Below, in pieces: positions 25,528 through 43,665 of a stretch of 64,000 nucleotides of DNA. The notes below the pieces were generated by a model. That model saw only the letters and a program-made list of their open reading frames with translations, did not search any database and was not told where the DNA came from. How positions within the stretch are numbered: the first letter of the stretch is position 1; each line of letters opens with the position of its first letter. This stretch comes from Leptospiraceae bacterium (lineage in GTDB: Bacteria; Spirochaetota; Leptospiria; Leptospirales; Leptospiraceae). The position numbers were made by a program, and so were the translations under genes. Location of the stretch: contig JAGOHK010000015.1 of assembly GCA_017996175.1 (NCBI GenBank), forward strand, positions 1 to 64,000, read 5' to 3'.

Positions 25528-26705
25528 ATTCTCTTTTTGAATTAGAGATAACTCGACCAATTGAAGAAATTTCTCAGAATCCATCTTTATTAGAGCGAAA
25601 TACTGTATATGAATACTTATTTTTAGTAATATCGAAAGAGGATGATTTTACCATTCTTAGCGAGCCCGCTTCCAAAGAACTTTTAGAATATTGGAAAGAA
25701 AATAAAATTGAAATTGGAGATACTATTCTAACGGATATGCCTTATTATCCGAAGATACTTTTACTAAATGGAAATATCCCTGAAGATATTACATTGATAG
25801 AATGGGGTAAAACAAGTATACTCGATACTCAAAAAGGATTTCTCTTAAAGAATGATAATATACTTAATCATTCCATTTATAACAATTCCAAGATAAATCA
25901 GACTCGCTGGAAAGAAAGTTCTGGATTTAATCGTTTAACAAGTCTTATCTGCACAGATAAAAATGAATTAGATTTTTGTATCGCTAATTTTCGATTCCCA
26001 TTAGTTATAAAACCTGAATTTGGATTCTCCGGTAGAGGAATCTTTATATTGAGAAATGATTTAGATTTTAAAAAATACTATAAACAAATACTAGAAATGT
26101 TTTCCGTAAATACGAACGGAATTATCATTGAAGAATGGGTAGGAAACGATAAAATACTAGACTTCAGTGGAATATATGATTTATCCGCAAAACGACCTCA
26201 GTTAATTACATATACGAAAATGTTAGTCGACAAAATGGGTATCTACAGAGGAACGATTATTGAAAAAAAATTTGGTAAAGAATTTGGCAATGGCATGAAG
26301 GGGATAATATCTAGTTACCAGATAGATAAGTTTCCCTATAATGGTAGCATTACAATGGATGGATTTACCTTTACCAGAGACGGCTTAATACAAATTCAAT
26401 ACATGAGTGAAATTAATTTTCGATATTCTATGGGTCGGATTTTGTATGAACTTCATCAGAAGATAGGAAAAGGTTTGGATAATTGTGGGTTATTCTTTTT
26501 TCCAATTAGAAATAAAAGAATTAGTTTTCGCTATACTATCATTGGTTTAGAAATATTAAAGGCTAAATATAAAATGGATTTACTAATATTAACTCCTTTA
26601 CATAACGCAAAATCAAAATTAAACCCATTTGTTGGAATCTATTCGAATAGTTCAGAGGAAATTTCTTTGGAAATAGTCGACGAAATCAAAAAACTATTTG
26701 TTTAA
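25506..26705 (+). CDS. ATP-grasp-like ligase of unknown substrate
   Basis: 399 residues. The middle and end resemble an ATP-grasp domain: a nucleotide-binding Lys and Gly-rich loop (LVIKPEFGFSGRGIF, about 160-180), an EEW segment, and a metal-binding E-x-N-x-R motif in SEINFRYSMGR. The N-terminal ~130 residues are not recognised. It overlaps the DUF455 gene by 22 bp and converges with the ankyrin gene (12-bp overlap). An amide- or thioester-forming reaction is expected from the fold; the substrate is unknown. Confidence 0.75.
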   Translation: MGNLYRLNSLFELEITRPIEEISQNPSLLERNTVYEYLFLVISKEDDFTILSEPASKELLEYWKENKIEIGDTILTDMPYYPKILLLNGNIPEDITLIEWGKTSILDTQKGFLLKNDNILNHSIYNNSKINQTRWKESSGFNRLTSLICTDKNELDFCIANFRFPLVIKPEFGFSGRGIFILRNDLDFKKYYKQILEMFSVNTNGIIIEEWVGNDKILDFSGIYDLSAKRPQLITYTKMLVDKMGIYRGTIIEKKFGKEFGNGMKGIISSYQIDKFPYNGSITMDGFTFTRDGLIQIQYMSEINFRYSMGRILYELHQKIGKGLDNCGLFFFPIRNKRISFRYTIIGLEILKAKYKMDLLILTPLHNAKSKLNPFVGIYSNSSEEISLEIVDEIKKLFV

Positions 26706-29700
26706 TCGAATGAGGAAAGTGTCTGTTAGACCCAGATTCTGATTTTTTCCAATAGAGCTTTCTGTCGTTCCATGAATTAGGGGACGATTTTTTTCATCGA
26801 ACGAAATTCCATTGATAACATCGTCAGCATTTGAGCCAATAAATTCTGTCCATAAACGATTCCCATTTGAATCAAATTTAAAAACAAATCCATCTTTACC
26901 TCCCATATTTTTTTGGGAATGAAAGTCGATAGTCGTTGTTCCATGTACGAAAATATTTCCTTCCGTGTCACTAGAAATGCCCGCCGGACTTATTTCTTTT
27001 GTTGAATATAAATATTTTTTCCAGACAAGTTTACCTGCTTTATTGAATTTAGAAAAAAATAGAACCTCTGTTTTGGGAGATAATATTGTTTTACCAGTAG
27101 CGAAAAAAGAATCAGATAATTTATCATAAAAGTTTGCCATGACCTCTTCTGAATTTCCTAGTTTTAAATTGATTGGTTTTTTGCCATCAAGCTGGATAGA
27201 ATTTATTTTTTTACCAACTAGATAGATTCTATCGTCTGAAACCTGAATATTATTAAAACTTTCTTGTGTTTTCTCTTTCCAAAGAATCTCTCCTTCTTGT
27301 GAAAGTTTTACTATTTGAAATGATTTCGGTCCAAAATTCATTCCGATATAAACGTTATTTTCATAATCATTTACTATAGAAATCGCGTTTGTGTTTAGAC
27401 AGGCTCCCTTTTCTGAGAAATACTTTACCCAGATTTCTTCTCCATTTTCATTTAATTTTTTTACAGAAATAATTTTAGATTCATTTGGTTTACACTTGGT
27501 ATCCGTGACATCTTTTATTTTATCAAACGTAATTCTAAGTAAAAATATATTTTCCTTTTGATCGACTAAAAAGTCCTCGATTGATTCCAGTTTCAAAGTA
27601 GAAATTGGTTCTCCTGTATTCGAATACTTACTTAAAATAGATTTCCCGTTTGACTCTATTAAATGATAAATTATTCCTGACTTACTTATTTGCAGTTTTT
27701 TACTTTTATCCGCTTCACTGGAATTAGGCAAAGAAATATTAAACTCGTTGTCTATTCGATTAGAATTTACATACCTATTTGCGATAGATTGGATTTCTTT
27801 TTCATTAGAATTCTTAATGTAGTCTAATGCTGATTTTCCTTTTTCATTTTTTAATAGTAAATCCGTATTTAGATCGAGTAATTTTCTGATAATTTGTAAA
27901 CATGCAACATCGTCTTTTTCTTTATCCGATTTTGTTGCAATCATCAAAGGATTTAAACCTTCATTATTAAAGGAATTCATATCTGTTTTATAATTAAATA
28001 GAATATGAATAAAATCCTCCAATTCTTTGTTCTTAATTCGATCGTATACTGCGGTAAACGTAAGTTTATGAACTGCATTATTTCCTGACAAATCAACAAG
28101 ATTCGGATTCGCGCCCTCCTTTAATAAAAATTCTGTTAATCTATAATTTTTACGATTAATTGCGTAGCTTAACGCAGAATTTCCGAAAGAATTTTGCAAA
28201 TTTATATCTGCTCCATTTTTAAGTAGAAGAGAAATTACTTCGATTGTATTTTTAAGATTTCCTGATTCTGACTTTGCTGATTCGATTAATACTGAATTGC
28301 CGACATTATTGGTTAACTCTATATTAGCCTTTGCACGTAATAATTCCTTTATGGTTTTTAAATCTTGTCTTCCTACTGCAATCAATAAAGCCGTTTCATC
28401 ACGACTATTCATTTCATTAACAACTGCACCTCTGTTTAACAAAAATGATACGAGTTGACTAAATCCGCCCTGTGCTGAAAATATTAAAGGAGTATTACCG
28501 TTAACCCCCTTTTCTTTAAGATCAAAACCATTGTCTAATAATACTTTCACAACTTCTTCCTTTCCAATCATGCAAGCAATATGTAAAAGATTATTTCCGT
28601 CTTTGTCCAAGACTTTCTTATCTGCTCCATTTTTTAGTAAAGCAGTCACAATTTCTGCATTTCCTTTCTCTATATACTCGGTGAGTAAAGATTTATTTGA
28701 TGCAGTGGTAATATTTACATTAGCCCCTTGGTTTATAATTTCTATGAACATTTTAGTTTTATTGGCGGTAATAGCTTTTAGAAGAAATTCATGTGCTATT
28801 ATTAAAATTGGTTTCCCGTCTAATGATTTTGTGCTGTTATCTGCGCCATTTGCCATTAGCTCCTTAAATGTCAAAACATTACTATCTTTTACAGAAACTA
28901 GAATTGCCGTATCCCCATCCTGGTTTCGTTGGTTTAAATCAGCTCCTTTCACAATGACTTGTTTTATAAATTTAGGGTATTTAGATTTTGCTAGATAGTG
29001 TAATACGGAAGACTTACTAGAATCTAGAACTTTTACATCTGCGTTTTGCTCAATCAAAAAAGCAAATGCAGTTTCTTTATTTTTTTCTAAGGTATATATT
29101 AGGGGAGTTTTACCTAAATTATTGGGTACATTCAGAAGTGTTGGTACTTGATTGAGGATACTTTTAGCTGCTTTAATATTATTTTCTGCCAACATAATAT
29201 GGAGAAGAGTATTACCATCATTATCCGTTATATCAGGCGCGGCTCCTTCTTTAAGTAATTCATCAAACGTAGGCATTAGTTTATTTTTGTAAGCAAGCAG
29301 AAGAGGACTGTTTCCGCTAGAGTCTTTTGCGTTTAAATCTGGTTTTGCTTTTAACATGACTGTTAAATTTTTAACTTGCTTACTTGAAATTGCAATATGA
29401 ATTGGAGTCTGTCCAGCTAGGTTAACATCATTTATCCTCAAACCTTTTTCTAATAAACTCTCTATTAAGCTTACATCTGATTTTTTCGCTAGATAATGAA
29501 GAGCATTGTTTCCATTAGAATCTACTGAATTAAAATCAATACTTAGATTTAGAAAATATTGAATAATCTGTTTGTTTCCCTTTGATACTGAAATTAGAAA
29601 TGCGGTTAATCCTGATTCATCCTTAGTATTCGGATCTGCCCCTTGTGAAATGGAATCTTTTATTTTTTGAAGATTATTAGACTTAATAGATAAAAGTAAA

Positions 29701-29774
29701 TCTTCATTGGGATCAGAATAGATCGCCCAAGAAGTAAAAATAAAAAAAGCAAATAATAATCTATATAAAATCAA
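26694..29774 (-). CDS. Exported ankyrin-repeat protein with SBBP beta-propeller domain
   Basis: 1026 residues. The start is TTG at 29774 with a good GAGGAAA. A signal peptide (about 1-20) is followed by roughly 17-19 ankyrin repeats (about 25-650; typical units contain DGNTLLHI, DGNNLLHIA and GNSALSYAI). The C-terminal ~350 residues carry SBBP/PQQ-like beta-propeller repeats (WVKYF, NVYIGMNFG, GGKDGFVFKFDSNGNRLW). It should be periplasmic or surface-located, probably for protein interaction. It lies 16 bp after the M23 peptidase gene, so they are likely co-transcribed. Confidence 0.9.
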   Translation of the reverse strand: MILYRLLFAFFIFTSWAIYSDPNEDLLLSIKSNNLQKIKDSISQGADPNTKDESGLTAFLISVSKGNKQIIQYFLNLSIDFNSVDSNGNNALHYLAKKSDVSLIESLLEKGLRINDVNLAGQTPIHIAISSKQVKNLTVMLKAKPDLNAKDSSGNSPLLLAYKNKLMPTFDELLKEGAAPDITDNDGNTLLHIMLAENNIKAAKSILNQVPTLLNVPNNLGKTPLIYTLEKNKETAFAFLIEQNADVKVLDSSKSSVLHYLAKSKYPKFIKQVIVKGADLNQRNQDGDTAILVSVKDSNVLTFKELMANGADNSTKSLDGKPILIIAHEFLLKAITANKTKMFIEIINQGANVNITTASNKSLLTEYIEKGNAEIVTALLKNGADKKVLDKDGNNLLHIACMIGKEEVVKVLLDNGFDLKEKGVNGNTPLIFSAQGGFSQLVSFLLNRGAVVNEMNSRDETALLIAVGRQDLKTIKELLRAKANIELTNNVGNSVLIESAKSESGNLKNTIEVISLLLKNGADINLQNSFGNSALSYAINRKNYRLTEFLLKEGANPNLVDLSGNNAVHKLTFTAVYDRIKNKELEDFIHILFNYKTDMNSFNNEGLNPLMIATKSDKEKDDVACLQIIRKLLDLNTDLLLKNEKGKSALDYIKNSNEKEIQSIANRYVNSNRIDNEFNISLPNSSEADKSKKLQISKSGIIYHLIESNGKSILSKYSNTGEPISTLKLESIEDFLVDQKENIFLLRITFDKIKDVTDTKCKPNESKIISVKKLNENGEEIWVKYFSEKGACLNTNAISIVNDYENNVYIGMNFGPKSFQIVKLSQEGEILWKEKTQESFNNIQVSDDRIYLVGKKINSIQLDGKKPINLKLGNSEEVMANFYDKLSDSFFATGKTILSPKTEVLFFSKFNKAGKLVWKKYLYSTKEISPAGISSDTEGNIFVHGTTTIDFHSQKNMGGKDGFVFKFDSNGNRLWTEFIGSNADDVINGISFDEKNRPLIHGTTESSIGKNQNLGLTDTFLIRLNK

Positions 29775-29790: not shown

Positions 29791-31050
29791 TTAGTTATTT
29801 GCAGGCAAAGAGATATAATTCGCAGGATTAAGACATTCTTCCCAAAGTCCAGTTCTTACTTCAAAGTGCAAATGAGGACCGGTTGACTTTCCTGTATTTC
29901 CAATTTTACCAATCAAATCCCCCGCTCGCACTCGGTCGCCTTGTTTTACTAACCATTCATTCTGGTGCGCATAATAGGTAACAAGTCCATTGTCATGTTT
30001 TACGACGGTTAAGTTTCCGTAACCGCTGTTACTACTCGTATGAATTACAGTTCCATCTCCAGCCGCATAAATCGGAGTTCCTGTTCCTGTGTAAGCATAT
30101 AAATCAACTCCTGTATGATTGGAACCAGGTTTTTTTGTGACTGGGTCAATCCTAGTTCCATACGAACTGGAGACGTAGTTAAGCCCTACACCGGAATCAA
30201 GTGGATATAAAAAAGTTTTATCTAAAGTATCCGCTATTACTGTAGAAGTTTTTTTATCGCTTAGAAATCCACCGAACACCCAGCCACTTGTTCCATCCTG
30301 TTCTACTTTTACCCAAATAGAGCGTAATCGTCCGATGCTTTCGAATTCTTTTCGTCTATCTAATACTTTTAATACTGAACCGTTAGCCGCGATATATACG
30401 ATCGTTCCATATTTACTTGGTTCATTTCTGAGTTGGAGGTATTTCGTCCTAACATATTTAGTGGTCCCAAATAAAATATGATTCTGGTCTTCTTCTTCAG
30501 CTATATCTTTTTTTGATTCAGAAATGTAACCTGCAAAAACCCAACCTTCTACCCCGGAACTTGCTCTAACAAATGCCCATTTGGCGGAAATTCCATCAAT
30601 TAAATCATCATTCTCACTGAATTTATTAACTGTTAATTCTGAGTTCTGCGATAGGCTTGTAATGATTTCTCCTTCTCGGTATGGCGACTCACGCATATAA
30701 AGACTACTTGCTGTTGTGAAATATTTTATAGGAATAAATCGCTCTCTGATAATTGGCTTAGTTAATATAGGTTTTTCTTTTTGAAGATATTTGAATAACA
30801 CATACCCTTCCTTGTTTTCGAATTTAACCTTTGCCCAAAACTCATCTTCTTTTTTAGTGGCAGCAAGATTTTCTTCCAGAAGTAAAAGTTCGACTTCATC
30901 AGTTGGATAAAGTTTTGCAATGATGTCTTGGTTTTTTTCGAAAGCACGACCACGAAGAGATGTTTTTTCATTTAGAAAATAATTTTCTCCGATAGACTGA
31001 GATGCAATTTGAAATACAAAAAGCAAAATAGAAATTAAAAAAAGTCTCAT
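29791..31050 (-). CDS. SH3-domain and M23 (LytM) peptidase, exported
   Basis: 419 residues. A signal peptide (about 1-18), three SH3-like segments (around 25-90, 108-178, 195-262), and a C-terminal M23 peptidase (about 285-415) with zinc-ligand motifs NHTGVDLY (H-x-x-x-D) and GPHLHFEV (H-x-H). All catalytic motifs are intact, so it should cleave peptidoglycan cross-links in the periplasm. It is upstream of, and probably co-transcribed with, the ankyrin/beta-propeller gene. Confidence 0.93.
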   Translation of the reverse strand: MRLFLISILLFVFQIASQSIGENYFLNEKTSLRGRAFEKNQDIIAKLYPTDEVELLLLEENLAATKKEDEFWAKVKFENKEGYVLFKYLQKEKPILTKPIIRERFIPIKYFTTASSLYMRESPYREGEIITSLSQNSELTVNKFSENDDLIDGISAKWAFVRASSGVEGWVFAGYISESKKDIAEEEDQNHILFGTTKYVRTKYLQLRNEPSKYGTIVYIAANGSVLKVLDRRKEFESIGRLRSIWVKVEQDGTSGWVFGGFLSDKKTSTVIADTLDKTFLYPLDSGVGLNYVSSSYGTRIDPVTKKPGSNHTGVDLYAYTGTGTPIYAAGDGTVIHTSSNSGYGNLTVVKHDNGLVTYYAHQNEWLVKQGDRVRAGDLIGKIGNTGKSTGPHLHFEVRTGLWEECLNPANYISLPANN

Positions 31051-31117: not shown

Positions 31118-32551
31118 TTACAGCGTTTCCATTTTATGAGAAAGAATTTCATGCAACTCGGGATCGTATTGTTTATCAACGGCGTAAATGATATTGCGAG
31201 ATAAATCTTTATTTAAATCATATTGGGCGGGTCGCAAAATAGTTCGAAGTGGGTCGAGGTCAAACCCAGATATCCGCAGTTTAGGAGATTTTTCTACAAT
31301 AATATCAATATTTCCGCAGCGTTCAACAACTGGCTTACTTTGAAAATTCTCATGCTCTGTAATTCTGCAAGCTTCATAAAGCGATTTCGCGTCATTATTC
31401 ACTACTTGTAGAATAATAAAATCTCCTTCTGAAAGAATTGTTTTATTTTCACAGAGGCTAATCGCAGTATGATCTAAAAAATCTCTCACAATTCGCGGCA
31501 TATAGGTGAATAAGGAGTTATTTATAATCATCCGCACAGCCCGAATTGGATCAAACGCATTTCTCCAGGGAACTTTTGTAGTTAGTGAAGAAAATTCAGA
31601 AGCGATTGCTAAAATATTCGCATCCTCATCGTAATAAGACGTATCCTCTTTTAAAAGTTTTAACTGCCCTTGAATATCTATAGAAATTGCTTGCTTAGAA
31701 GTCCACTCGAATTGTTTGGAATGTGCATTTAATTTTTCAACCAGATAGTCCATCTTCGGATAATTGTTGTTAGGCTTATCTTCTCGTAAAGGTCTATGAT
31801 GACATAGAATATTTCTTTTGATGGCAGGATTTAAGTCATCGGTATGCGCAACCATAAGATAGGACATGATAGGATGATACCTGATATAATCCATTTTCAT
31901 TTTTGTCAATTCGCGAGTTTTAGGATGAGCCATTCGCAAGAAACCAATATCGCAAAGTAAAGCACTCATCATGATATTGTAAACAAGCTCATGCATCACA
32001 CCTTGGTCACGAATGTTTTGGTAATACATACCTCGAATTTTTAAAGCCATAGCGATCACGGCTCTTTTAACAGCAATTTCGATTTCATAATCTAGTGATT
32101 TATTTTGTAAAACTTCTAGTATATTAATGGAGCCTCGAATGGCATTTTGATTTTGTGTAAATTCCCTCATCGCGTCCGCGAGTTTACTTCCTGTTTTCCG
32201 CACATGGTACGAAGTTAAGGCTGATTCTTTTAACCTTAAAAATAACTCTGATGTTTCTTCGCAAAGTAGGTGGGCAATTTCATCTGAGATCAGTTTTGAA
32301 TTTGTATACGGAGTTTTTATTTTTTTCTCTTTTGGTTTATCTTCGGGGATAATGTTTCTATACTCCTCTTCGTTATAATAAATCCCTTGTTTGATAAATC
32401 CAAACAACCTTTCTATTTCTTCATGCGTTGCATTTTCTTTTTGATAAATTAAAACTTGTCCTCTACTATTGTAAAAATCAAGTGGAATTGTTTTACGCTC
32501 TGTAATGTATTCCATTAACTCTGATTTGAAGTTGAATAATTTAAGGTGCAT
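31118..32551 (-). CDS. Degenerate HD-GYP-like protein
   Basis: 477 residues. The central part (about 185-370) follows the HD-GYP layout: ALLCDIGF in place of ALLHDIGK (Cys200 replaces the first HD-motif His, D201 kept), YHPIMSYLM in place of HPxxGxxIL, ILCHH (H251-H252 kept), and NNNYP in place of DGSGYP. The N-terminal ~60 residues resemble the extension seen in other HD-GYP proteins. The metal centre is likely incomplete, so cyclic di-GMP hydrolysis is doubtful; binding is possible. It follows the LpxC-like gene by 6 bp, suggesting joint function. Confidence 0.75.
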   Translation of the reverse strand: MHLKLFNFKSELMEYITERKTIPLDFYNSRGQVLIYQKENATHEEIERLFGFIKQGIYYNEEEYRNIIPEDKPKEKKIKTPYTNSKLISDEIAHLLCEETSELFLRLKESALTSYHVRKTGSKLADAMREFTQNQNAIRGSINILEVLQNKSLDYEIEIAVKRAVIAMALKIRGMYYQNIRDQGVMHELVYNIMMSALLCDIGFLRMAHPKTRELTKMKMDYIRYHPIMSYLMVAHTDDLNPAIKRNILCHHRPLREDKPNNNYPKMDYLVEKLNAHSKQFEWTSKQAISIDIQGQLKLLKEDTSYYDEDANILAIASEFSSLTTKVPWRNAFDPIRAVRMIINNSLFTYMPRIVRDFLDHTAISLCENKTILSEGDFIILQVVNNDAKSLYEACRITEHENFQSKPVVERCGNIDIIVEKSPKLRISGFDLDPLRTILRPAQYDLNKDLSRNIIYAVDKQYDPELHEILSHKMETL

Positions 32552-32557
32552 GGCTAG

Positions 32558-33535
32558 TTAGTAAACAATTCCAATTTTTTCCATTTCATTACTACATATA
32601 AAATTGGCAGCGTCAATTTGTTTATGATGATCGAATAAAAATGTGGTAAGACGCCCTACAAATTTTCCTGAATATTTTATATCAACAAACTTTAAAAAAG
32701 CGATGATGTCGATGAGTTCGTGCATCATAAATTCATAATTTATCCCGTTGAAGTCAAATTTTGAACGCGGATTATAATAAGTATCCTCATCTACGAATAA
32801 AACATTTTCCACAGTAATCGGATAATCCTTGATTAGTTTATTTTTTACGATTTCAAAATTTTTTACAGTTTCTTCTTTGGGACGAAATGCAGGTGTTCTT
32901 GCTTCGCATAAAAAGGTATAAAAATCAGGTGTAATTTCCACTTGAATTCGAGTATTGCCAATAGATGTACCCGGATAACTTACTTGGTGATCGACTAATA
33001 GAGATTTTTCCCCTTCGTCTGGTTCGATTATAAAATATCCTTTATCGAATATTCCGGCAAATGGGTGTTTGACTGTAAAAAATTTTGCATCATCTACTAC
33101 TTTTAGATTACCAAATAAGGCGTCTATATAAGGTTTGTTGCAATAATCGAAAGTAGGAAAACTTGGCTCTGATACTTGAAAGTCCAAATTGATATTAAGC
33201 GCGGTCATAAAAGAAATTGGATGTTCAATGATTTTAATTTCACCTAGTTGAATATTATGCTGACCCTTGATTGTTAATTCTGGAGAAATAGACAGCGATT
33301 TTTCGTTGTAAGTCATTCTAGGTATTTGCGTTAAACAAGGTGTAAGCTCAATTTGAATCGGTTTATTTTCAAAAGAAGATATGCCTGTAATTGTGGTTGG
33401 ATTTATGATAGAATAGGATTTATCTTTTTTTATTCCAAGTTTATTGTCTCGAAATATATCCGGCACGGGAGTGATATTGGCAAACCGCTCCGATTTCATT
33501 TGTTTGATATTGTCTAAGTTTGTTTCGATATTCAT
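32558..33535 (-). CDS. Divergent LpxC-like protein, probably not a normal deacetylase
   Basis: 325 residues. I read the whole length as an LpxC (UDP-3-O-acyl-GlcNAc deacetylase) fold: KIIEHPISFMTALNI matches TVEHL (E104, H105 kept), ITPDFYTFLCEARTPAF matches the RxISRARTFGF region, VENVLFVDEDTYYNP matches the DNAVVLDD...LN region, and MHELIDIIAFLKF matches RHKMLDAIGDL. In the last motif the zinc Asp (D246 in E. coli) is Phe280, while H272 and a His at 303/304 are kept. DGSA is replaced by DYCN. Two of the three zinc ligands are therefore retained. ATG start with GGAGAG upstream. Co-transcribed with the HD-GYP-like gene. Confidence 0.68.
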   Translation of the reverse strand: MNIETNLDNIKQMKSERFANITPVPDIFRDNKLGIKKDKSYSIINPTTITGISSFENKPIQIELTPCLTQIPRMTYNEKSLSISPELTIKGQHNIQLGEIKIIEHPISFMTALNINLDFQVSEPSFPTFDYCNKPYIDALFGNLKVVDDAKFFTVKHPFAGIFDKGYFIIEPDEGEKSLLVDHQVSYPGTSIGNTRIQVEITPDFYTFLCEARTPAFRPKEETVKNFEIVKNKLIKDYPITVENVLFVDEDTYYNPRSKFDFNGINYEFMMHELIDIIAFLKFVDIKYSGKFVGRLTTFLFDHHKQIDAANFICSNEMEKIGIVY

Positions 33536-33905: not shown

Positions 33906-34994
33906 TTAATAAATACCCTTAATGGAGTTTGCAATCCGATTTACATTATCCTTTGTAAGGTTAGGATAAATAGGAATACAATGACCTCTTTGATAAAGCC
34001 TTTCCGCGTTCGCAAAATCTCCGTTATTCGCTTTTAGAATTCTATGCAATGGTAGTGAAATTGTTTTTTGTGTTCCAATTTGTAAGGATTTAAAATACCT
34101 TTCTACTTCTTCATAAGGTTTAGAAATGATAATTGGAAAACGGTTAAATTGATCCTGGCTTGCATGTTTGAAAAAAGTTTCATGCGAAGCGGATAATACT
34201 GATTGTAGGTAGATTTGAGCAATTTTTTTCTTACGCTCAATGATTACACCCAGTTTAGAAATTTGTTCAATTCCAATTGCAGCTTGGAAATCGAGTAAAT
34301 TATAATCGAATTTAGGTTTATCTGATTCTCTTTTTTCGTTATGTCCTAATTTTAAAGAGCGAATATTTTCAGCGAGAGTATCAGTGGGGGTAATTAGGAT
34401 TGCACCGTTCCCAGTTGTGATTACATGGTTTGGTAACATCCCACAAATTGAAATAGTTCCTTGTTTACTAACTGGAATATCTTCCGAGTCAGCGCCTATC
34501 GCTTCAGAGTAATCTTCGATTACAGGAATTTCTTTTACATTGTATTTTTTTAGATCGAATAAACATCCAAAGGCGTGGTCAATTAAAATTGCTTTCGGAG
34601 AAAATTCTTCTACTCGATGATTGAATTCTTCGACATCCATATGAAAAGAGGATTTGCCGAGATCGACTAATACTGGTTTTGCGCGAAGCATTAGAATTGC
34701 ATCAAGAGCAGCATGAGGAGCATAAGTCGAAAGTAAAACTGGATCGTTATCTGTTACGCCTAACGCAAGTAGTGCCAAGTGATAGGCAGACGTAAGGCTG
34801 TTTGCAGAAATTACATTTCGCAATTTGAACGTAGATTTGAAATCTTTTTCGAATCTGTCCGTGATTACGCCAGAAGAAAGCATATCGTCAACTAGACAAT
34901 CTAGGACTGTGACAAGCTCTTCTTTGGATAAAGTCGGTTTATTGAATTCTATGGATTGGTTTTTTGGTGATAGTTTCTCTGCAATATTTCCCAC
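33906..34994 (-). CDS. DegT/DnrJ/EryC1-family PLP protein with His at the lysine position
   Basis: 362 residues with GTG start and AAAGG upstream. The fold is the DegT sugar aminotransferase family: substrate/PLP region NSLTSAYHLALLALG, D161 in PVIEDYSEAIGA (PLP-pyridine Asp), and LPNHVITTGNGAIL, which aligns with the SFxxxKxxxxGEGG motif. Here the Schiff-base Lys is His190. The same Lys-to-His change is known in ColD, a sugar 3-dehydrase. GEGG is GNGA, a further change. No nucleotide-sugar genes are adjacent. A dehydrase or non-catalytic role is inferred. Confidence 0.8.
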   Translation of the reverse strand: MGNIAEKLSPKNQSIEFNKPTLSKEELVTVLDCLVDDMLSSGVITDRFEKDFKSTFKLRNVISANSLTSAYHLALLALGVTDNDPVLLSTYAPHAALDAILMLRAKPVLVDLGKSSFHMDVEEFNHRVEEFSPKAILIDHAFGCLFDLKKYNVKEIPVIEDYSEAIGADSEDIPVSKQGTISICGMLPNHVITTGNGAILITPTDTLAENIRSLKLGHNEKRESDKPKFDYNLLDFQAAIGIEQISKLGVIIERKKKIAQIYLQSVLSASHETFFKHASQDQFNRFPIIISKPYEEVERYFKSLQIGTQKTISLPLHRILKANNGDFANAERLYQRGHCIPIYPNLTKDNVNRIANSIKGIY

Positions 34995-35254: not shown

Positions 35255-35782
35255 CTATACTCTAACGTAGTAACTCCGTGCAAAGTCCTGTGAAACCCGC
35301 CTTAATGAGAGAGAAACTCGTAGTTGTAACTTATTTTTGGTAGGAACTGCGTTGCTTAACCCCGACTCTGATAAAATATCCCAAAATCCTAAAATATCCA
35401 GTTCAAGTAAGAAGGTAAACATCCAGCAGCGAGATTTTCCAAAAGCAAGAGCCAGTTCCCCGAGTTCTATCCAGTCTGCGTTTCCGACACGAAAGTTAAC
35501 TCGTTTCAAATCAAGACCTTCCTCTTGGTATTCAGTCTTAATTTTCTTGGGCGGCAGAATCATTCCAGAATGAGTAACGATTCGGTACATCCGTAGAAGA
35601 TTTCGAAGATAAATGATAAGGCTATTTCCATTTTCTTTCGTTTTCCTTTTCAAATCTTCGAGCAAATGCGCGGGCACAAGGAGAGTCGAAATAGTTTTCT
35701 CGCTTTCTCCGAGTTGATTGAATCGAAATGTTTTTTTATTTTGAAACTTTATCATACTATTACTAGGCAGAAAAATTTTCAT
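35255..35782 (-). CDS. DUF1564 family protein
   Basis: 175 residues. LLVPAHLLEDLKRK, IIYLRNLLRMYR, KTEYQEEGLDLKRVNFRVGNADWIELG and AFGKSRCWMF correspond, from memory, to DUF1564, a family of unknown function seen mainly in Leptospira and often present in many copies. The basic, helical N-terminal part resembles a ribbon-helix-helix-type DNA-binding region, but this is uncertain. ATG starts at 35782 or 35755 are possible; no good ribosome site is seen. The stretch 35046-35254 upstream of the DegT-like gene shows no gene. Confidence 0.75.
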   Translation of the reverse strand: MKIFLPSNSMIKFQNKKTFRFNQLGESEKTISTLLVPAHLLEDLKRKTKENGNSLIIYLRNLLRMYRIVTHSGMILPPKKIKTEYQEEGLDLKRVNFRVGNADWIELGELALAFGKSRCWMFTFLLELDILGFWDILSESGLSNAVPTKNKLQLRVSLSLRRVSQDFARSYYVRV

Positions 35783-38151: not shown

Positions 38152-39486
38152 TTATTTATACTCAAACTGAGATTTAATCGAAAGAACTGATTTCTTAAAA
38201 CTAAGATCTTCTTTCATCATTTCTTTGACTCGATTTATCGCACTAATAACAGTAGTATGTTTCGTATTGAAGACTCGTCCGATAACAGTTTTATTCATAT
38301 TACAAACTTCGAATAGTAAATACATGCAGATATGACGCGGAATAATATACTCAGCCTTACGGCTTTTACTTAGAATATCCTTCTTATGTTGCGTATAACG
38401 TTCGCAAACTGTATCTATGATCTTTTCGTGGTTTACACCTAGGTCTTTGATTTTATGAAGTCTGTTTTCTAGGATTTCTTTTACTTTTTCATCGCTCACA
38501 AACAGTAAAGAAAATGTCTTCTTGTAAAGCTGAATATCATTCAAACAACCGAATAGAGCCCTGGTGTCAGTTTGAAAATTATCCGAAATAAACTGAATAG
38601 ATGAATCAGTTAATTGTAAATTTGCTTCTTTTGATTTCTGTTTTAAAATTCCAATTCTAACAGTTTCGTCTGGTGCTTGTATTTCTACTTGGCAACCTGT
38701 GATAAAACGAGACTTAAGCTTTTCGTTAATCGGTAGCTCACTAATGGGGCGATCGGCAGCGAGGATAATCTGTCTTTTGCGATCGAATAGGTAATTAAAA
38801 ATAGCAAAGAACTCCTCTTGTGTTTTTTCTGCACTGCTATTGAGGTTTTGAATATCATCAATGATGAGTGCTTGGTAAGATTGATATTTTAATTTAAATG
38901 CATCCATCAACTGTCTATTTTGAACTGTAAAAACGAATTCAGAAAGAAAATCAGAAATAGAGATATATTTTATCGGTTTGTTTGGATACATTTGCGTAAG
39001 AGCATTTCCAATAGCATGCAGCAAATACGTCTTACCCACACTTACTTTTCCGTGAATATAGATTGGATTTTGAGTTCCTGGGTGTTCAATTGCATCTTTG
39101 CAAGCCATAAAAGCCATTCGATTGCAATCGCCAATTACAAACTTGTCCATAGTGTAATCAGGATTAAATGGAAAAGAGTCTTCTTTGAACTTTGTATCAA
39201 TGAAATTTGAAATCGGTGTATCATTGGAATCAGTATGAATCTGAATTCTAAGTTTGAAGCCACCAACTTTTTCTGCCGCATCTGCAATCACAGATTGATA
39301 TTTTTTTTCTACGTGATTTTTGATTGTAATAGAAGGTGCTTTAATAACCAAATTATCTTCTTTGCACTCTACAAAAGAGAGTGGAGATATAAAAGGGTCA
39401 AAGTACATCGCGGGAATTTGTTTTGAAACTTCATCCAAGATCTTAGGCCAGATAGATTCCAAATTTCCCTCTCTTAAAACACTCAT
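38152..39486 (-). CDS. dnaA: Chromosomal replication initiator DnaA
   Basis: 444 residues, normal length. Domain I (about 8-75), a short variable domain II, an AAA+ domain (about 107-330) with Walker A GKVSVGKT (K152; a Ser replaces the usual fourth-position Gly) and Walker B IIDD (D210, D211), and DNA-binding domain IV (about 350-440) with a basic loop SKSRKAEYIIPRH and the signature TKHTTVISAI. It binds DnaA boxes and opens the origin. Unusually, dnaN, recF and gyrB are not next to it; the upstream side is a 415-bp AT-rich gap and then an icmF operon. It may be the main or a second dnaA. Confidence 0.95.
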   Translation of the reverse strand: MSVLREGNLESIWPKILDEVSKQIPAMYFDPFISPLSFVECKEDNLVIKAPSITIKNHVEKKYQSVIADAAEKVGGFKLRIQIHTDSNDTPISNFIDTKFKEDSFPFNPDYTMDKFVIGDCNRMAFMACKDAIEHPGTQNPIYIHGKVSVGKTYLLHAIGNALTQMYPNKPIKYISISDFLSEFVFTVQNRQLMDAFKLKYQSYQALIIDDIQNLNSSAEKTQEEFFAIFNYLFDRKRQIILAADRPISELPINEKLKSRFITGCQVEIQAPDETVRIGILKQKSKEANLQLTDSSIQFISDNFQTDTRALFGCLNDIQLYKKTFSLLFVSDEKVKEILENRLHKIKDLGVNHEKIIDTVCERYTQHKKDILSKSRKAEYIIPRHICMYLLFEVCNMNKTVIGRVFNTKHTTVISAINRVKEMMKEDLSFKKSVLSIKSQFEYK

Positions 39487-39901: not shown

Positions 39902-40222
39902 ATGGCAGATAAAAAATCTTTCGTTCGTGTCTGGACCTCTTTAGATCCAATCGAAATCAAAAAACATCTGCTTTTAATTGATGATCTCTATGGCTCTTGT
40001 GCCAATTGTAAACAACTTGGTTTAAATTATCTCAAAGATAAAGAATGTCCTGGTTGCAAAACCACTTTCAAATATGTAACAACCAACTTAAAAGGTCTTG
40101 ATGATGCAAAAAAAATTTTGAATCGAATCCAAGATATGAATTTAAAATTAATCTTAATCGAAAAAGAAGATTATATTCAAGCGACTGCAAAAGACGCAAT
40201 GAAAGATTTATTTAAAAGCTGA
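39902..40222 (+). CDS. Small zinc-ribbon protein coupled to icmF
   Basis: 106 residues from the ATG at 39902 (an in-frame TTG at 39887 is less likely). CANC and CPGC, about 20 residues apart, form a zinc-ribbon-like pair of C-x-x-C motifs (about 32-55). The rest is charged and helical. The family is not recognised. The stop TGA overlaps the icmF ATG by one base (TGATG), so translation is coupled, suggesting a role with IcmF, for example in assembly or regulation, but this is inference. No clear Shine-Dalgarno. Confidence 0.75.
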
Positions 40223-43200
40223 TGTCTTCTTCTCCAATTTACCAATCCAAACATAAAATTCGAATTGTAACTTCTACTTCCTTGTTCGATGGACACGATG
40301 CCAGTATCAATGTGATGCGTCGAATTTTACAAGCAAGTGGCGCCGAAGTAATTCATTTAGGTCACAACAGGTCTGCAAAAGAGATTGTAGATTGTGCGAT
40401 CCAAGAAGATGTGCAGGCAATTGCGATTACCTCTTACCAAGGTGGGCATATCGAATTTTTCAAATACATGTTTGACTTGCTAAAAGAAAAACATTGTGGA
40501 CATATTCGTATTTTTGGTGGAGGCGGCGGCACGATTCTTCCTTCTGAGATTGTAGAACTCCATTCCTATGGGATAACACGTATTTATTCCCCAGACGATG
40601 GACGTGCAATGGGTCTACAAGGAATGATCAATGATTTATTGGAAAAATCTGACTTTCCCAACGGGCATCTTGGAGATACGAAAGATTATCCGCTAGACAA
40701 AGAAATTCTTTTAGGAAAAGCTATATCTTTATTGGATAACTCACTAGAAATTCCTTTTGATTTACAAAATAAATTACATCTCAAAGAAAATTCCACTACT
40801 CCTGTGATCGGTTTAACTGGAACAGGCGGAGCTGGGAAATCTTCTATCACAGATGAACTCATTCGTCGTTTTATAAATGATTTTCCTGAGAAACAAATCG
40901 CTATTATCTCCATAGATCCAAGCAAAAAAAAGACAGGGGGAGCACTACTCGGAGATAGAATTCGTATGAATTCGATTCATCATCCGAATATTTTTATGCG
41001 CTCTCTTGCTACGAGAGAAGCAAATCTTTCTGTAAACAAACATATATCTGAAATTGTAAAGTTGGTTCGTAATTCTTACTTTGATTTGATTTTTATTGAA
41101 ACAGCTGGAATTGGACAGTCAGATTCTATGATTACCGAAATTGCGGATATTAGCATTTATGCGATGACTCCTGAATTTGGAGCGGCAACTCAATTAGAAA
41201 AAATTGATATGTTAGACTTTGCAGACTTAGTTGTTATTAACAAGTTTGATCGATTTGGTGCAGAAGACGCACTTAGATCAGTTGCAAAACAATACCAAAG
41301 AAATCACAAACGTTTTGATGAAAAAATTGAATCCATGCCAGTTTATGGAACCATTGCTTCTCAATTCAATGATGCAGGAATGAATCGTTTTTACTTGGCA
41401 GTGCTTGGTAAGATTGAAGAAAAATTAAACCAAACGTTTTTATCTAAAACATTTTCTGAAATCAAATCTAAATCAGATACAAAGAATTTTTCTCTAAGTA
41501 TTGTTCCCCAAACTAGAACTAGGTATCTTTCGGAAATCGCAAAAGAAGTTGCGGATTACAAAGAGTTTACCCAAGAACAATCCGAAATTGCTAGTAAAAT
41601 GTATCAATTGAGAGGCTCAATTGAGTTACTTTATCCCGAAATCAAATCTAAAACTTCATCGAATGATTTATCTTTTCACAAACATATTTCCATAGAAAGT
41701 AATGAATTTGTTTCTTTCGGAATTGGGGAGCTTTTAAAACTGTATCAATCTTTGGAAACAAAACTTCATCCTGAATGTAAAAGCATTTTAGAAAACTGGG
41801 AAACAAAAACTTCAAACTACAAATCAGAATACTTCACCTACAAAGTCCGCGACAAAGAAATCAAAGTTGCGAATTTTACAAAGTCTCTGTCTGAATTGGA
41901 CATTCCCAAAATTTCTTTACCCCGTTTCAAGGACTGGGGTGATATTCTGAGATGGAATTTACAAGAAAATGTTCCGGGTGAATTCCCATTTACCGCAGGA
42001 GTTTATCCTTTCAAACGCTCCGAAGAAGATCCAACTCGTATGTTTGCAGGAGAAGGTGGACCGGAGAGAACGAACAAACGTTTTCATTATATCACCAAGG
42101 GGCAAAACACGATTCGCCTCTCTACAGCTTTCGATTCAGTGACTTTGTATGGAGAAAATCCAGATAAACGAATGGATATTTACGGAAAAATCGGAAACTC
42201 CGGTGTGTCCATTGCTTCCCTCGACGATATTAAAAAACTCTATTCTGGTTTTGATTTATGTAAACCATCTGCTTCTGTTTCGATGACGATCAATGGTCCA
42301 GCTCCGATGTTACTTGCTTTTTTTATGAATGCAATCATCGACCAACAATGTGAACTCTATATTCGAGAAAATGGTTTAGTAGAAGAAGTAGAAAAGAAAA
42401 TCCAAATTATTTACGCGAGTAATTCGGTAGGTCAACCTAAATACGCAGGTGATTTACCCGAACATCACAATGGTTTGGGTTTATTGTTGTTAGGCGCTAC
42501 CGGAGATCAAGTTCTACCTAAAGAAATTTACGAAAAGATAAAAGCAGATGCAATGTCTAAAGTGCGTGGAACTGTTCAAGCAGATATTCTAAAAGAAGAC
42601 CAAGCGCAAAATACTTGTATCTTTTCTACTGAGTTTGCACTAAAACTTATGGGGGATATTCAGGAGTATTTCATTCACAACAAAGTGCGAAATTTTTACT
42701 CTGTCTCTATTTCTGGTTATCATATTGCCGAAGCAGGTGCAAATCCGATTACACAACTCGCACTGACTCTTTCGAATGGATTTACATATATCGAATACTA
42801 TTTGTCTCGTGGGATGAAGATTGACGACTTTGCGCCTAACTTATCTTTTTTCTTTTCCAACGGAATGGATCCTGAATACAGCGTAATGGGTCGCGTGGCA
42901 AGACGTGTTTGGGCAAAAGCTATCAAGTATAAATACAAAGGCTCTCTTCGTAGCCAACTTTTAAAGTATCATATCCAAACTTCTGGTAGATCTTTACATG
43001 CACAGGAAATTGAATTCAACGATATTCGCACTACCTTACAAGCATTAACCGCTCTTTATGATAATTGTAATTCTCTTCATACAAACGCTTTCGACGAAGC
43101 AATTACTACTCCCACAGAAGATTCGGTTCGTCGTGCAATGGCAATTCAACTTATCATCAACCGAGAAATGGGATTGGCTAAGAATGAGAATCCGCTACAA

Positions 43201-43665
43201 GGAAGTTTTATCATCGAAGAGTTGACTGACTTAGTAGAAGAAAGAGTCATGTTGGAATTCATTCGCATTTCCGAGCGCGGTGGAGTTTTGGGTGCAATGG
43301 AGACGATGTACCAAAGAAATAAAATCCAAGACGAGTCCCTTCACTATGAACATTTAAAACATTCCGGTGAATTTCCAATCATTGGAGTAAATACTTTTTT
43401 AAATAGCAAAGGCTCTCCTACAATAATTCCAGAAGAAGTAATTCGTTCGACCAAAGAAGAGCGTGATTTACAGATTACAAATATTGAAAACTTACATAAA
43501 GCGAAGTCTAGTATTTCTAATGAAAAAATTCTTTCTCTCAAAAAATCTGCCATTCAAAATGAAAATCTATTCGAGCGGCTAATGGATGTTAGTAGATATT
43601 TATCATTAGGACAAATGACACAAGCACTCTACGAAGTCGGTGGTCAATACCGAAGAAATATGTAA
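40222..43665 (+). CDS. icmF: Fused isobutyryl-CoA mutase with G-protein chaperone (IcmF)
   Basis: 1147 residues. An N-terminal cobalamin-binding domain (about 12-150) has the base-off motif FDGHDAS (D23, H25). A MeaB-like P-loop GTPase follows (about 190-480; Walker [11 protein letters not shown]206), then a linker and the acyl-CoA mutase barrel (about 560-1147). Specificity residues read F608 (TRMFAGEG) and Q796 (AQNTCIF), the isobutyryl-CoA type; methylmalonyl-CoA mutases have Tyr and Arg there. It should interconvert isobutyryl-CoA and n-butyryl-CoA, cytoplasmic. It is coupled to the zinc-ribbon gene before it and the thioesterase after it (TAATG). Confidence 0.95.

Follow-up and report, generated by a model that had tools for sequence, protein, structure and literature searches.

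A divergent LpxC paralogue with a retained zinc site and an altered substrate region, encoded beside a degenerate HD-GYP gene in a Leptospiraceae genome

Does a distant relative of LpxC, encoded directly beside what looks like a degenerate HD-GYP protein, still perform the LpxC reaction, has it decayed into a pseudo-enzyme, or has it been diverted to another task? LpxC is the enzyme that commits cells to lipid A synthesis. The question arises from a window of 64,000 nucleotides (the whole stretch of DNA analysed) of a Leptospiraceae bacterium, in which open reading frames of 325 amino acids (32558-33535) and 477 amino acids (31118-32551) lie on the minus strand, with the coordinates, strand and lengths given in an initial annotation of this DNA. 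That annotation read the two products as a pair of pseudo-enzymes, which may sense a lipid A precursor or c-di-GMP and regulate envelope synthesis.

The 325-amino-acid protein is a true LpxC homologue, in agreement with the LpxC layout first noticed from its sequence. It matches PF03331 at residues 43-294 (E 8.7e-13, 48.8 bits against a Pfam cut-off of 27), and this cut-off is also passed by seven of its nine relatives (by name search). Its identity to the canonical LpxCs of the same order amounts to 16-19%, and with TIGR00325, the lpxC equivalog of NCBIfam, its score is 25 bits, far below the cut-off of 187. Structure prediction, the check proposed in the initial annotation, yielded an LpxC fold: the AF2 model, for which nine members of the family were used, reached a pLDDT of 84.8 and a pTM of 0.84, and all 50 of the PDB matches listed by Foldseek are LpxC (best E 5e-16). 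Superposition on LpxC structures is loose, with an rmsd of about 7 A and a TM of about 0.62 by query, and confidence in the model is low at residues 211-260. The predicted LpxC fold is secure; the fine geometry of the active site is not.

For a comparison of residues, the LpxC-like family was aligned with canonical LpxCs of the same order and each column was classified, with E. coli numbers assigned by motif position; the family sample comprises ten sequences, whose identity to the window's protein is only 39-49%. Identical throughout both groups are, among others, E104, H105, D130, R213, T214, F217, H272, D276 and H303, which are the equivalents of E78, H79, D105, R190, T191, F194, H238, D242 and H265 of E. 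coli. The zinc ligands of LpxC are H79, H238 and D242 (PMC10254716), and this triad is complete as H105, H272 and D276. The earlier reading that Phe280 replaces the zinc Asp was an error of register: the HKxxDxxGD motif reads H272-E-L-I-D276-I-I-A-F280, the ligand D242 corresponds to the invariant D276, and Phe280 stands at the position of D246, which is no ligand. Loss of a zinc ligand is ruled out by the alignment, in which all three are kept. The residues that had been listed as retained (E104, H105, H272 and H303/304) are indeed present, and it is H303, not H304, that corresponds to H265, because FGHEQQI of the relatives aligns with FDHHKQI of the 325-amino-acid protein. A supposed loss of DGSA holds in part only: the Asp (D130) is invariant in the LpxC-like family, whereas Gly-Ser has changed to Tyr/Glu-Cys. 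The initial annotation mentioned neither the retention of R190 and T191 as R213 and T214 nor a change at the K239 position, which is Glu273 here and Glu in all ten family members. The D246 position is occupied by Phe or Trp across the family. On the minus strand, the codons concerned lie at 33221-33226 (E104, the general base, and H105), 32894-32896 (T214, oxyanion/substrate), 32717-32722 (H272 and Glu273), 32708-32710 (D276), 32696-32698 (Phe280) and 32627-32629 (H303, the catalytic His).

The two altered positions are significant for function. K239 of LpxC contacts the pyrophosphate and the hexose of the substrate. D246 forms a hydrogen bond to H265 and tunes it (PMC6286764). In deep mutational scanning of E. 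coli LpxC, D246 accepted Asp only and K239 accepted Met and Asn besides Lys (PMC9842644). Neither Glu at K239 nor Phe or Trp at D246 is thus tolerated in the E. coli enzyme, and the 325-amino-acid protein is therefore not expected to be a working LpxC. The same scan tolerated H265Q and E78V (PMC9842644), so that the conservation of E104 and H303 is no proof of catalysis.

The source genome possesses one canonical lpxC (318 bits at G000:C197, all catalytic residues present), i.e. the second copy whose absence, according to the initial annotation, would make the 325-residue protein the working enzyme. Canonical lpxC is likewise present in all six other genomes checked from the window's own family (f1), and in seven of the nine genomes with an LpxC-like gene from f2, the second family of the order, whose records are titled Leptospirales, Leptospiraceae or other spirochaete MAGs; the two genomes without it are G021 (87% complete) and G026 (77% complete). 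The LpxC-like gene itself was found in 9 of 22 genomes of this sister family and in no other f1 genome, including three species of the window's genus. A scan of 393 Spirochaetota genomes gave five weak extra matches in other families, of which the strongest (G051, the only one read) is a canonical LpxC, and no further members were found in a contig collection of 85k species or in plasmids, phages and viral contigs. In a tree, moderate support (90/96) places the window copy among those of f2. Estimates of dN/dS for the family are 0.03-0.08 in the three estimable pairs, a rough figure given high dS and saturation of the other pairs, and point to purifying selection. Judged from these comparisons, the LpxC-like family appears to be a narrowly distributed, selected paralogue with an intact zinc site.

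The adjoining 477-amino-acid protein, which has N- and C-terminal parts of its own, was matched to canonical HD-GYP in a profile-profile comparison with hhalign (99.5%, E 7e-23); HD_5 matches occur in 14 of 21 members of its family, while the window copy falls under the cut-off. Our reference for the metal site was PmGH, with the ligands H189, H221, D222, H250, H276, H277 and D305 (PMC4159591). The window protein keeps D222, H250, H276 and H277, but H221 is replaced by Cys200 (codon 31952-31954, minus strand), the H189 position lacks a His, and the D305 ligand is lost, with Ser-Glu around its place; GYP reads NYP. Cys200 for the HD-motif His and the NYP motif had been recognised from the start, and the losses at H189 and D305 are additional. 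Lacking the ligand set of an active phosphodiesterase, the protein is, as far as its residues indicate, a genuinely degenerate HD-GYP. Most genomes of this class contain a member of the HD-GYP family (19 of 22 f2 genomes, with further members in f1, f3 and f5), and a fully supported branch separates the window copy from the f1 copies. In f2, the HD-GYP gene has in 10 of 11 loci a same-strand neighbour of 615-870 amino acids without a Pfam or NCBIfam family (e.g. L093:4373-6685, minus strand, and L099:8861-11131, plus strand), for which neither the window's genome nor the f1, f3 and f5 genomes tested have a counterpart. Divergent from this f2 operon lie genes for a crotonyl-CoA carboxylase/reductase, an MsbA-like ABC exporter and a LipL41-like lipoprotein (L093:8580-13544, plus strand, and equivalents), which are conserved across the sister family.

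What, then, may the LpxC-like protein do? We give about even chances to the reading that it belongs to a small, clade-restricted family derived from LpxC with a different job, that of a zinc hydrolase acting on a new substrate. A kept metal site and kept base, oxyanion and acid residues, combined with changes at K239 and D246, fit a changed substrate better than simple decay. H105, H272 and D276 would probably bind one zinc, and E104 as the base, T214 at the oxyanion and H303 as the acid would hydrolyse an acetamide- or ester-type bond. The substrate would probably be other than UDP-3-O-acyl-GlcNAc, because Glu invariably replaces the Lys that contacts the sugar diphosphate, and Phe or Trp takes the place of the Asp that partners the His; Glu273 may serve as a new acidic partner of H303. 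Lipid A of the host would be made by its own canonical LpxC, and the degenerate HD-GYP protein would probably act as a non-hydrolysing regulator or scaffold. The neighbouring genes gave no hint of a substrate, as no neighbours of the LpxC-like gene are conserved beyond genus level. Counting against a zinc hydrolase is that D246 is essential in E. coli and has no proven replacement here; the protein may be catalytically dead.

A zinc-binding pseudo-enzyme, which binds a lipid A precursor or competes for LpxC regulators and so tunes lipid A synthesis, comes near to the original idea, and we regard it as somewhat unlikely but worth serious consideration. The changes at D246 and K239, two positions at which the E. 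coli enzyme is intolerant, the canonical lpxC in the same genome and the degenerate HD-GYP protein next door are all in keeping with it. However, the invariance of the general base, the oxyanion Thr and the catalytic His is more than zinc binding alone needs, a UDP-linked precursor is less likely to be bound where Glu stands for the diphosphate-binding Lys, and a pseudo-enzyme with an HD-GYP partner is at odds with genes that are unlinked elsewhere. Of the original interpretation, it holds that neither homologue does its textbook job, one being a degenerate HD-GYP and the other no ordinary LpxC. A pair of pseudo-enzymes is not upheld, as the LpxC-like protein keeps its zinc ligands, its base, the catalytic His and the Thr of the oxyanion site. 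The idea that the pair senses a lipid A precursor or c-di-GMP and regulates the envelope found no support, and similar HD-GYP proteins of L. interrogans are predicted not to bind c-di-GMP (PMC12943098).

A related question is whether the two genes form a unit. They lie on the same strand with a gap of 6 bp, and no terminator-like site was found between them; because of this close spacing and the missing terminator-like site, they are likely co-transcribed. Their adjacency was nevertheless found in the source genome only, and in each of the eight f2 genomes that carry both genes the two are separated, which rules out a conserved operon; the check on co-occurrence suggested earlier thus revealed no linkage outside the source genome. 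As HD-GYP is nearly universal in f2, its co-occurrence with the LpxC-like gene is uninformative. That the products constitute a dedicated functional module is doubtful: the spacing and the absence of both genes from sibling species, together with their common affinity to the sister family, speak in its favour, whereas the separation of the genes in eight sister-family genomes, and the different conserved protein that adjoins HD-GYP there, speak against it. A joint function is a guess. The fullest version of our preferred reading, namely LpxC-derived zinc hydrolases with a non-UDP substrate, in which the acidic partner of the catalytic His has shifted to the K239 position from that of D246, and which in this species work with a degenerate HD-GYP regulator of the same operon, must be called improbable as a whole.

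We consider it very unlikely that the protein is an ordinary, fast-evolving LpxC isozyme that still deacetylates UDP-3-O-acyl-GlcNAc. The retained zinc site and core acid/base residues and a score above the Pfam cut-off would agree with such an isozyme, but both substitutions, K239Glu and D246Phe/Trp, are untolerated in E. coli LpxC, the score is far under the lpxC equivalog cut-off and the genome already has the canonical enzyme.

The surroundings of the two genes bear on their origin. In a sibling species (G003) the gene for a DegT-type aminotransferase comes immediately after an ATP-grasp gene, whereas the window has four extra genes in between, which encode an ankyrin-repeat protein (26694-29774), an M23 peptidase with three SH3 domains (29791-31050), the HD-GYP protein and the LpxC-like protein, all on the minus strand. 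The DegT gene (33906-34994, minus strand), whose counterparts in two sibling species show 93% and 91% identity, marks native genome on its side of the block. The M23 and ankyrin genes, assigned by domain search, probably stand outside the pair: they are also adjacent in other f1 genomes (G004, G005), so that the LpxC-like and HD-GYP genes are best seen as a unit of their own. The M23 gene had no match at E <= 1e-40 in 20 genomes of other families, and its full-length form is absent from three siblings. An imported island of four genes including M23 and ankyrin is weakened, given that M23-ankyrin is an f1 pair and M23 has no close sister-family relative. A role of DegT as a GnnB-like lipid A enzyme was dropped, since siblings without the LpxC-like gene have DegT too. 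No mobile-element borders were found around the block. The simplest reading of these comparisons is a gain of the LpxC-like and HD-GYP genes, probably together, from a lineage related to f2; the alternative is that the other f1 genomes have lost them. That foreign DNA was joined to the genome by an error of assembly or binning, as the 232 contigs, a contamination estimate of 3.3% and the affinity of both genes to another family might suggest, is hardly credible, since the block lies between a DegT gene 93% identical in a sibling and an M23-ankyrin pair characteristic of f1, its G+C content is like that of the rest of the window, and identity to known sister-family copies is at most 50%.

Elsewhere in the window, a DUF1564 protein (35255-35782, 77 bits) is encoded beside the DegT gene that borders the extra block, a DnaA-type protein (38152-39486) contains all three Pfam DnaA domains, and a single protein of 1147 amino acids (40222-43665) combines B12-binding, MeaB GTPase and methylmalonyl-CoA-mutase-type domains in the layout of an IcmF-type fused mutase.

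Degenerate HD-GYP proteins of this kind appear to have been described already, to judge from the published account of LIC_10138 and LIC_10139 of Leptospira interrogans, for which loss of metal and c-di-GMP binding is predicted (PMC12943098). By that description they are like the 477-amino-acid protein in their central HD-GYP, N- and C-terminal domains, substituted ligands and an insert after the mutated GYP, and the window gene differs in that it adjoins an LpxC-like gene. Bd1817 of Bdellovibrio bacteriovorus, as cited in PMC4159591, is a protein with an HD-GYP fold reported to be enzymatically inactive, which keeps a di-iron centre. Compared with Bd1817 as cited there, the window protein is without the equivalents of H221, H189 and D305.

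For the LpxC-like family, no published description of such a paralogue was found in the open library searched. LpxC is usually regarded as an enzyme with one copy and one function, and as an antibiotic target. If our reading is true, selected LpxC paralogues with a rebuilt site for substrate and His partner would demonstrate that evolution can turn the LpxC fold to a different reaction, and the family could be an off-target or a decoy for hydroxamate inhibitors of LpxC. Compared with LpxC as defined by PF03331 and TIGR00325, the 325-amino-acid protein is alike in its predicted fold, its zinc triad and the equivalents of E78, R190, T191 and H265, but differs in K239 changed to Glu, D246 changed to Phe or Trp and the altered Gly-Ser of the DGS motif, and in a longer N-terminus and inserts.
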